DNA of 64,000 nt from Alkalihalophilus pseudofirmus (GTDB lineage Bacteria; Bacillota; Bacilli; Bacillales; Bacillaceae_D): NCBI RefSeq assembly GCF_029094545.1, contig NZ_CP117835.1, positions 910,001-974,000 of the forward strand. Reading direction: 5' to 3'. Positions 23,449 through 25,334 of this stretch are shown in pieces. Every line of letters starts with the position of its first letter. Within the stretch, counting starts at the first letter, position 1. The position numbers and the translations under genes are program-made. The notes beneath the pieces were generated by a model that was not told where the DNA came from, searched no databases, and saw only the letters and a program-made list of their open reading frames with translations.

Positions 23449-23477
23449 TTGACAACTTTCTTAAGGTGTCATACAGT
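23449..23477 (+). promoter_or_regulatory. Promoter of the ABC-F leader
   Basis: TTGACA (23449-23454), 17-bp spacer, TACAGT (23472-23477). It points into the 280-nt leader of the ABC-F gene. Confidence 0.7.
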
Positions 23478-23483
23478 AAAATT

Positions 23484-23745
23484 AATTAGATGACAGGTGG
23501 TGACCCAATTACATGAAGTACTAATCCTATTTTAGAAAACAACCAATTGAAGGCATGTTAAAGCAGGTGTGTTCCCTGTTTTATTTATTGATGCCTCAAT
23601 TATCGTTTTCAGGATAGGATTGGTCTTCTATAGTTGGAATAACATCAATAATAGTCTCTATTATTTGGTGCACCCTGCTATACGTATGCCTCCTATCCTG
23701 AACAAGGATAGGAGGCTTTCTTTGTCTCCAAGTACATTATAGAAA
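23484..23745 (+). promoter_or_regulatory. Transcription attenuator (leader RNA) of the ABC-F gene
   Basis: Four mutually exclusive segments are visible. Segment 1 CTAATCCTAT (23521-23530) pairs with segment 2 ATAGGATTGG (23614-23623). Segment 2 extended, TTCAGGATAGGA (23608-23619), is an exact 12-bp complement of segment 3 TCCTATCCTGAA (23692-23703). Segment 3 also forms the 5' arm of the terminator with segment 4. A tiny reading frame ATG AAG TAC TAA (23513-23524) ends on segment 1, with GGTGGTGA upstream. A second 20-codon frame (23555-23617) ends on segment 2. Stalled ribosomes on the leader would free segment 2 and open the terminator. This is the logic known for vmlR and other resistance ABC-F genes; the specific frame used here is inference. 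Confidence 0.75.
23688..23720 (+). terminator. Leader terminator 40 bp before the ABC-F start
   Basis: GCCTCCTATCC / GGATAGGAGGC, perfect 11-bp stem with a 7-base loop and TTTCTTT tail. It lies within the transcript leader, not behind a gene. Confidence 0.85.
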
Positions 23746-23759
23746 ACGGAGATGGTGTC

Positions 23760-25334
23760 ATGTTGCTAGAAGCAAGCAATCTAAAACATAGTGTAGCGGA
23801 ACGAACGTTATTTACCATTGAGTCTTTAAAGATTGAAAATGGTGAGCGTATTGGCTTAGTTGGACCTAACGGTTGTGGGAAAACGACTTTATTAAAAGGA
23901 CTGGCCGGAGAGACTGTATTTGATAAAGGCAGCGTCATCAAGCACAGTACATGTGAAATATTGCCGCAATTAAAGCGGACAGACGCGATTAAAAGCGGGG
24001 GAGAGGTAACTCAAGAATACATTAATCAAGCATTGCTGAGGGAACCTAAGCTCCTGTTAGCTGATGAACCCACCACTCACCTAGATACAGATCATATTGA
24101 ATGGCTGGAGGAGAAATTGAAAAGGTGGAAGGGAGCTTTAGTTATTGTTTCTCACGATCGTGCATTCTTAGATGCAGTATGCACAAAGATCTGGGAGCTA
24201 AGTGATGAGAAGTTAAATGAATTTAAAGGGAATTATACGGAATATGTTAAACAAAAAGAGATTCAAAAGCGTAAACATGAGACTGATTATGAGAAGTACG
24301 AAGAGAAGAAAAAACAACTGGAATCTGCATTAAAGGCAAAAGAACAGAAAGCAAAAAGAGCGACGAAAAAACCAAAGAATATTAGTCGTTCAGAAGCCAG
24401 TATTACTGGAGCTAAACCTTATTTTGCAAAGAAGCAAAAAAAACTTCAGCAAGTAGGGAAATCAATAGAAACAAGGCTTAATAAGCTTGAAAAAGTTAAA
24501 AAGCCCAATGAACCTGCCGAGCTGAAAATGACGCTGCCTAATGAAGATCGATTTAATGGAAGGATTATGATTAGAATAAAAAACCTGCTAGGCACCGCTG
24601 GAAGCAAGCTCCTCTTTGAAGCGAACAGCTTTTACCTGTGCGGAGGGGATAAGGCAGCTGTAATTGGACCGAATGGCAGCGGGAAGACCACATTTATTAA
24701 AAAGTTGATACAAGCAGATGAAGGAATCAAGCTCTCACCATCACTTAAATTTGGCTATTTCAGTCAAGATCTCACTATTCTTAATCTAGAAAAGACCATA
24801 TTAGAAAATGTGAGTGAAGATGCTATTCAGAATGAAACTCTTATTCGTACAGTTCTGGCAAGACTTCACTTTAAAAGGGAGGATGTCCACAAGCCAGTCA
24901 AGGTGCTTAGTGGAGGAGAACGTGTGAAGGTAGCATTAGCAAAGTTGTTTGTAAGTGATATCAATACTCTTATCTTAGATGAACCAACCAACTTTTTAGA
25001 TATGCAGGCAGTAGAAGCTTTGGAGTCTTTGCTTCAAGAATATAAAGGAAGTATAGTTGTCGTTTCACATGACCGCCGTTTCCTGGAAAATGTGGCGACA
25101 AAGGTAATTACGATTGAAGAGAAGCGGCTGAAATATTTTGGTGGACCCTATAAGGAGTATCAACAATATGAGTCAAAAGAAGAAAGAGATACTAGCGAAG
25201 AACAGGTACTTATTCTAGAAACAAAAATATCTGAAGTTCTAAGCCGTTTAAGCATGGACCCGACAGAGGAATTAGAAAGAGAATTTCAAAAACTGATTGA
25301 GGAGAGGAGAAAGCGTAAAGGAAACAAATCTTGA
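23760..25334 (+). CDS. Antibiotic-resistance ABC-F ribosomal protection protein (Vga/VmlR type)
   Basis: A cytoplasmic ATPase that binds the ribosomal E site and dislodges antibiotics, typically lincosamides, pleuromutilins and streptogramin A. It has no transmembrane segments. ABC1 has Walker A GPNGCGKT (35-42), a compact signature SGGE and Walker B LLLADEPTTHLD. The long charged linker (about residues 165-275, KRATKKPKN, GAKPYFAKKQ) is the antibiotic-resistance domain. ABC2 has GPNGSGKT, LSGGERVKVALAKL and LILDEPTNFLD. Its short ABC1 and 524-aa length fit Vga/VmlR rather than EttA/Uup. GGAG lies eight bases before the ATG. Expression is probably controlled by the attenuator upstream. Confidence 0.9.
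   Translation: MLLEASNLKHSVAERTLFTIESLKIENGERIGLVGPNGCGKTTLLKGLAGETVFDKGSVIKHSTCEILPQLKRTDAIKSGGEVTQEYINQALLREPKLLLADEPTTHLDTDHIEWLEEKLKRWKGALVIVSHDRAFLDAVCTKIWELSDEKLNEFKGNYTEYVKQKEIQKRKHETDYEKYEEKKKQLESALKAKEQKAKRATKKPKNISRSEASITGAKPYFAKKQKKLQQVGKSIETRLNKLEKVKKPNEPAELKMTLPNEDRFNGRIMIRIKNLLGTAGSKLLFEANSFYLCGGDKAAVIGPNGSGKTTFIKKLIQADEGIKLSPSLKFGYFSQDLTILNLEKTILENVSEDAIQNETLIRTVLARLHFKREDVHKPVKVLSGGERVKVALAKLFVSDINTLILDEPTNFLDMQAVEALESLLQEYKGSIVVVSHDRRFLENVATKVITIEEKRLKYFGGPYKEYQQYESKEERDTSEEQVLILETKISEVLSRLSMDPTEELEREFQKLIEERRKRKGNKS

Follow-up and report, generated by a model that had tools for sequence, protein, structure and literature searches.

A probable ribosome-controlled attenuator before a chromosomal Vga-family gene of Alkalihalophilus, and its likely use before other resistance genes

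A Vga-family gene with a long leader

The window, a stretch of 64,000 nucleotides, belongs to an Alkalihalophilus genome (G000, 4.24 Mb) whose nearest named relative is A. marmarensis. It contains an ABC-F gene whose product scored 765.6 bits against the Vga-family profile NF000170, above the curated cut-off of 725, and for which staphylococcal VgaA is the nearest among solved structures. By the NF000170 result, the gene is Vga-type and not VmlR. Given the promoter-like sequence ahead of the gene, the leader is about 276 nt long, with transcription probably starting near position 23484. The elements of the locus are collected in Table 1.

Table 1. Features of the attenuator leader and the gene that follows it, in window coordinates.
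Feature	Coordinates	Strand	Basis
Sigma-A-type promoter TTGACA-17-TACAGT	23449..23477	+	10/12 consensus
Shine-Dalgarno AGGTGGTGA of the uORF	23495..23503	+	Read in sequence; homologous GGGTGA in 88/96 leaders
Three-codon uORF ATG AAG TAC TAA (MKY), proposed sensor	23513..23524	+	Conserved in relatives
Segment 1, 5' arm of anti-antiterminator SL-1	23515..23535	+	Folding; helix 89.5% paired in 46 leaders
SL-1 apical hairpin, then TTATTT; candidate NusG-type pause	23559..23586	+	TTNTTT counts in relatives
Segment 2, used either by SL-1 (with segment 1) or by the antiterminator (with segment 3)	23608..23628	+	Folding; antiterminator main helix 91.1% paired
SL-2 hairpin at antiterminator apex, TTATTT at 23661	23643..23670 (bounds approximate)	+	Folding, covariation
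SL-3, intrinsic terminator formed by segments 3 and 4, and its T-rich tail	23688..23723	+	Folding, covariation
End of segment 4, GGAGGC; can pair with 23724-23729 once the terminator is released	23711..23716	+	Folding, covariation
Segment 5, anti-Shine-Dalgarno element GTCTCC	23724..23729	+	Folding, covariation
Segment 6, ABC-F gene Shine-Dalgarno GGAGA, sequestered by SL-4	23748..23752	+	SL-4 96.5% paired; column pair 354/410 covaries
Vga-family ABC-F ribosomal protection protein, 524 aa	23760..25334	+	NF000170 profile and closest solved structure

Not a single base of the 311 nt preceding the ATG separates the window from A. marmarensis, whereas the ABC-F genes have diverged at 68 of their 1572 nt, with substitutions at 15 of 185 fourfold-degenerate sites. 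This indicates that the leader is constrained much more than the silent sites of the gene. In genome G002 of the same species, the promoter, the leader and most of the ABC-F gene are absent (L161:767-830), and a short remnant at the same site matches the 3' end of the gene. As this remnant was left in place, the gene was lost from G002 by deletion.

Competing helices in the leader

Folding of the terminated transcript yielded a long SL-1, SL-2 and the terminator, to which the fold of the full leader added a hairpin in which TCTCC (23725-23729) pairs with GGAGA (23748-23752). The key helix of SL-1 joins 23515-23535 to 23610-23628, while the antiterminator helix joins 23608-23624 to 23688-23702. 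The terminator stem (23688-23716) comprises 12 pairs and ends 43 nt before the gene. Pairing in the leader thereby runs as a chain, with segments 1:2, 2:3, 3:4, 4:5 and 5:6 as successive partners. A comparable three-way set of competing helices, defined as competing stems of at least nine pairs each plus a terminator with a T tail, occurred in one of 1000 dinucleotide-preserving shuffles of the leader.

An earlier note on this DNA had proposed a set of competing segments, and all of them were recovered within one base of where it had placed them. The pairings that it described are all present, but the real SL-1 and antiterminator helices extend further than it had drawn them. Its claim that the frame ATG AAG TAC TAA ends on segment 1 is correct, with the stop codon closing at 23524 inside that segment. 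The earlier note had overlooked that pairing of segments 4 and 5 can pass the switch on to the ribosome-binding site of the gene itself. The uORF-block site at 23513-23524 is the sole one in its own genome.

Masking of segment 1, which the earlier note had put forward as a check, made the leader refold into the antiterminator. We masked 23500-23533 to mimic a ribosome on the uORF start; the antiterminator was then the optimal fold up to transcript end 23712. For transcripts ending at 23716-23724, the terminator was ahead by 2-4 kcal/mol with the ribosome masked and by approximately 21 kcal/mol without a ribosome. Since this lead of 2-4 kcal/mol for the complete terminator persists at equilibrium with the ribosome masked, the switch must work by folding order, with the antiterminator forming first. 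Known attenuators likewise rely on the antiterminator forming first. When the antiterminator was forced during folding, GGAGGC (23711-23716) paired with GTCTCC (23724-23729) and the Shine-Dalgarno of the gene was freed.

The SL-1 loop contains the hairpin at 23559-23586, which has a terminator-like score and leads into a T-rich stretch. This hairpin may cause an early pause or be an additional site of termination.

Conservation and covariation among relatives

Order- and class-wide genome searches provided 100 Vga-family loci. In 97 of their leaders, a three-codon uORF is fused to segment 1 at a TAATCCTAT junction, which agrees with the proposal in the earlier note that the MKY mini-frame is the sensor. 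The uORF stop codon is continuous with TCCTAT or a similar sequence, and the block usually lies 170-320 nt before the gene. Two of the 100 leaders (L148 and L151) have a two-codon uORF in place of the three-codon one, and a single gene (L127) has no recognisable uORF or attenuator upstream, the sole such case among the 100. At another locus (L143) the Vga gene contains internal stop codons, and the uORF block is nevertheless found upstream.

Across the 100 leaders the uORF peptide is variable, with MKY being commonest, followed by MKF, MKN, MWN, MIN and others, while the start, stop, Shine-Dalgarno and spacing of the uORF are kept. GGGTGA is found 9-11 nt upstream of the uORF in 88 of 96 leaders. 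Considering this and the Shine-Dalgarno in the window itself, the ribosome-binding site of the uORF cannot be called weak, as it previously was.

We analysed covariation in an alignment (A2) of 46 leaders, which we picked among those with less divergence. Pairing in the repressed structure was 78.6%, compared to at most 58% when slid; doubly changed cells numbered 112, and shuffles gave 58.3 ± 6.8. The antiterminator was 84.4% paired, compared to at most 47% when slid. For segments 4 and 5, 98.7% of cells were paired, with 19 doubly changed cells versus 4.0 ± 5.5. Column pair 338/354 was A-U, G-C or G-U in all 46 leaders; column pair 354/410, for which the protein tree implies at least 13 changes, was C-G, U-A or U-G, again without exception. 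The cores of segments 1 and 2 are near-invariant and therefore carry little covariation signal. Compensatory changes were also examined on the protein tree with an independent-pairs test, which had too few pairs, was underpowered and did not reach significance. The covariation among homologous leaders that the earlier note had held to be informative is thus present, in that the repressed structure, the antiterminator and the segment 4:5 helix covary or stay paired.

The TTNTTT pause motif is enriched in relatives, though not universal. It follows the SL-1 apical hairpin in 25 of the 46 leaders (base-shuffled mean 13, maximum 19) and is found at SL-2 in 12 of the 46. In the window, TTATTT is present at 23581 and 23661.

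Two-codon uORFs were also seen before ABC-F genes at L039, L040, L041, L042, L043 and L053, in addition to L148 and L151, in the forms ATG AAG TAG, ATG AAG TAA and ATG ATT TAA. The default minimum in uORF4u is nine nucleotides, so two-codon frames may have been missed.

Proposed mechanism and alternative explanations

The leader very likely attenuates both transcription and translation under ribosome control, in the manner of vga(A) and vmlR. As in leaders of that kind, a very short uORF with its own Shine-Dalgarno lies early in the transcript, followed by mutually exclusive anti-antiterminator, antiterminator and terminator helices. Folding and covariation add a hairpin that hides the Shine-Dalgarno of the gene and would open in the induced state. 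The sequences of these elements, their conservation, their mutual exclusion in folding and their covariation support this directly.

By analogy with known systems, we infer drug-dependent stalling, the drug classes concerned, timing by pausing and induction. In the absence of drug, a ribosome would complete the three-codon uORF and depart, after which segment 1 would pair with segment 2 as SL-1. Segment 3 would then be free, the terminator would form and transcription would end at about 23720. In transcripts that read through, the ribosome-binding site of the gene would stay hidden in SL-4. Blockers of the first peptide bonds (lincosamides, pleuromutilins and streptogramin A) would hold the ribosome at the uORF start, where it would cover segment 1. 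Segment 2 would then pair with segment 3, and the terminator could not form in time. The released segment 4 would pair with the anti-ribosome-binding-site element and so expose the site of the gene.

SL-4 and the segment 4:5 helix are the best covarying helices, and repression of cplR is achieved by translational attenuation by itself (PMC10201436). Translation attenuation by SL-4 might therefore be all that matters here, with the terminator contributing little. As the terminator stem and its T tail are conserved in nearly all of the 46 leaders, we consider this improbable.

It is still less probable that a longer frame is the sensor. The earlier note had offered a 20-codon ORF at 23555, which ends on segment 2, and an 11-codon GTG frame overlaps MKY; both are open in the window. 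However, the ATG at 23555 is without usable Shine-Dalgarno spacing, and just 21 of 96 leaders have any ATG frame of at least eight codons that stops on segment 2. Relative to the uORF ATG, the GTG occurs in all three phases (56, 23 and 10), and a longer GTG frame is therefore not kept.

A leader this long, structured and highly conserved could also sense a drug, another ligand or a trans-acting protein directly, without translation of the uORF. This too is very improbable, since conservation is centred on the start, stop and Shine-Dalgarno of the uORF while its peptide varies freely, and since mutation of the uORF Shine-Dalgarno or start codon abolishes induction in the vmlR homologue (PMC9226507). 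An amino-acid attenuator that responds to shortage of lysine or tyrosine, for which AAG and TAC as the commonest uORF codons might speak, can practically be dismissed, because the two codons vary widely (MWN, MIN, MSN, MHN and MDC), two leaders retain a single codon after the ATG, and the genes downstream are for resistance rather than biosynthesis.

Under ribosome-controlled attenuation, the chromosomal Vga gene of this harmless alkaliphile is very probably inducible in the way that its plasmid-borne counterparts in staphylococci are. Leaders of this kind are ancestral and widespread in Bacilli.

The same cassette before other resistance genes

To search genomes we used an exact uORF-block pattern of 19 fixed bases and a stricter pattern that additionally demands segment 2. 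The former matched in 30 of 399 genomes of the class and the latter in 37 of 397 genomes of the order, with zero matches in the backward control in both cases. The sites precede Vga-type genes, apart from ten leaders, in ten other genomes, before Vat, Vgb, Cfr or MFS genes.

Three of these ten leaders (L199, L218 and L219) precede a Vat streptogramin A acetyltransferase scoring above the Vat cut-off; in L199 (reverse strand, about 2366-2147) the uORF of the attenuator encodes MKY. L221 precedes a Vgb streptogramin B lyase, whose best families, Vgb(B) and Vgb(A), scored below their strict cut-offs, and L222 precedes a Cfr 23S rRNA methyltransferase above its cut-off. The others (L202, L203, L204, L231 and L223) precede MFS transporters of at least two kinds, which are drug-efflux relatives.

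We folded the ten leaders with their terminators named individually. Each of them, when free, folds with segments 1 and 2 paired and the terminator in place; masking of the ribosome footprint shifts segment 3 onto segment 2. In an alignment read by eye, L199 resembles the Vga leaders of the window type, L222 resembles L150 and L131, and the remaining non-ABC-F leaders resemble L110, L111 and L228. This suggests, from sequence likeness, that the cassette was captured at least three separate times. It was looked for and not found upstream of the vgb-vat operon on a Priestia megaterium plasmid or of vat(E) in Enterococcus (L232 and L234), and is thus not general to the Vgb and Vat families.

We consider it likely that this is an exchangeable antibiotic-sensing RNA cassette for ABC-F genes as well as Vat, Vgb, Cfr and MFS genes. 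A single, repeatedly acquired sensor would tie together much of how Bacilli respond to drugs against the peptidyl transferase centre, and a two-codon sensor would be enough in some lineages. Target protection, target methylation, drug modification (acetylation by Vat), drug cleavage (Vgb) and efflux would then stand behind one sensor RNA. If true, a simple sequence motif predicts unannotated genes that a block of the peptidyl transferase centre switches on, which offers a direct route to new resistance factors. Full-text searches, which covered a minority of subscription journals, found no report of a cassette shared by unrelated resistance genes; the sharing and the two-codon sensors are what is new beyond the literature that we found.

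Comparison with known systems

Among Rfam families, we rejected membership of RF02452 (ncr1575), against which the window leader scored 19.5-19.6 bits over the full model compared to a gathering score of 60; it was also not among the matches of a genome-wide RF02452 search. Matches to NsiR1 and the PyrG leader were below threshold, aligned mainly with the terminator hairpin, and were likewise set aside. The RF02452 consensus contains AUG AUU AAC UAA, and an above-threshold match in G010 (L197, L058; G010:C3:75611-75815) ends 39 nt before an ABC-F gene of the VmlR-like type. The family, which Rfam lists as a small RNA, thus appears to be a vmlR-type attenuator leader.

The leader of Listeria lmo0919 (rli53), also before a Vga-type gene, is similar at the uORF block, where a three-codon uORF (MKF) is fused to TAATCC. 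Staphylococcal vga(A), of the same gene family as the window gene, shares the leader motifs GGGTGA, ATGNNNNNNTAATCCTATT, TCAGGATAGGAT and GCCTCCTATTCTG, but its uORF encodes MIN and the gene is plasmid-borne. Attenuation of vga(A) by the staphylococcal leader was reportedly described by Vimberg in 2020. The plasmid-borne staphylococcal vga(C) leader has the same motifs, and its uORF encodes MKY as in the window.

Clostridial cplR and VmlR2 similarly combine a tiny uORF, an ABC-F gene and attenuation, which for cplR is both transcriptional and translational (PMC10201436). The uORF encodes MR[I/M] for cplR and MK[L/Q] for VmlR2, and LsaA has another tiny uORF (PMC10201436). Unlike in cplR, where the terminator itself hides the Shine-Dalgarno of the gene, the window leader uses a separate SL-4.

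The closest comparison is with the leader of B. subtilis vmlR, in which uORF(MIN) lies within SL-1, followed by the SL-2 pause hairpin with TTNTTT, the terminator SL-3 and the SD-hiding SL-4 (PMC9226507). In that leader, the uORF start codon, the uORF Shine-Dalgarno, SL-1 and SL-3 were mutated and initiation at the uORF was toeprinted; mutation of either the Shine-Dalgarno or the start codon abolished induction by lincomycin (PMC9226507). The window leader likewise has a three-codon uORF in SL-1, which serves as anti-antiterminator, then SL-2 with TTNTTT as a candidate pause site, SL-3 and SL-4, and its antiterminator carries SL-2 at the apex. The ribosome-controlled attenuator that had been proposed for this locus thus matches the dissected vmlR leader element for element (PMC9226507). 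It differs from it in the uORF peptide (MKY instead of MIN), in the gene (Vga-type instead of VmlR) and in length (276 versus 219 nt). By analogy with this well-tested homologue, the window leader is probably a functional attenuator and a further case of a known mechanism.
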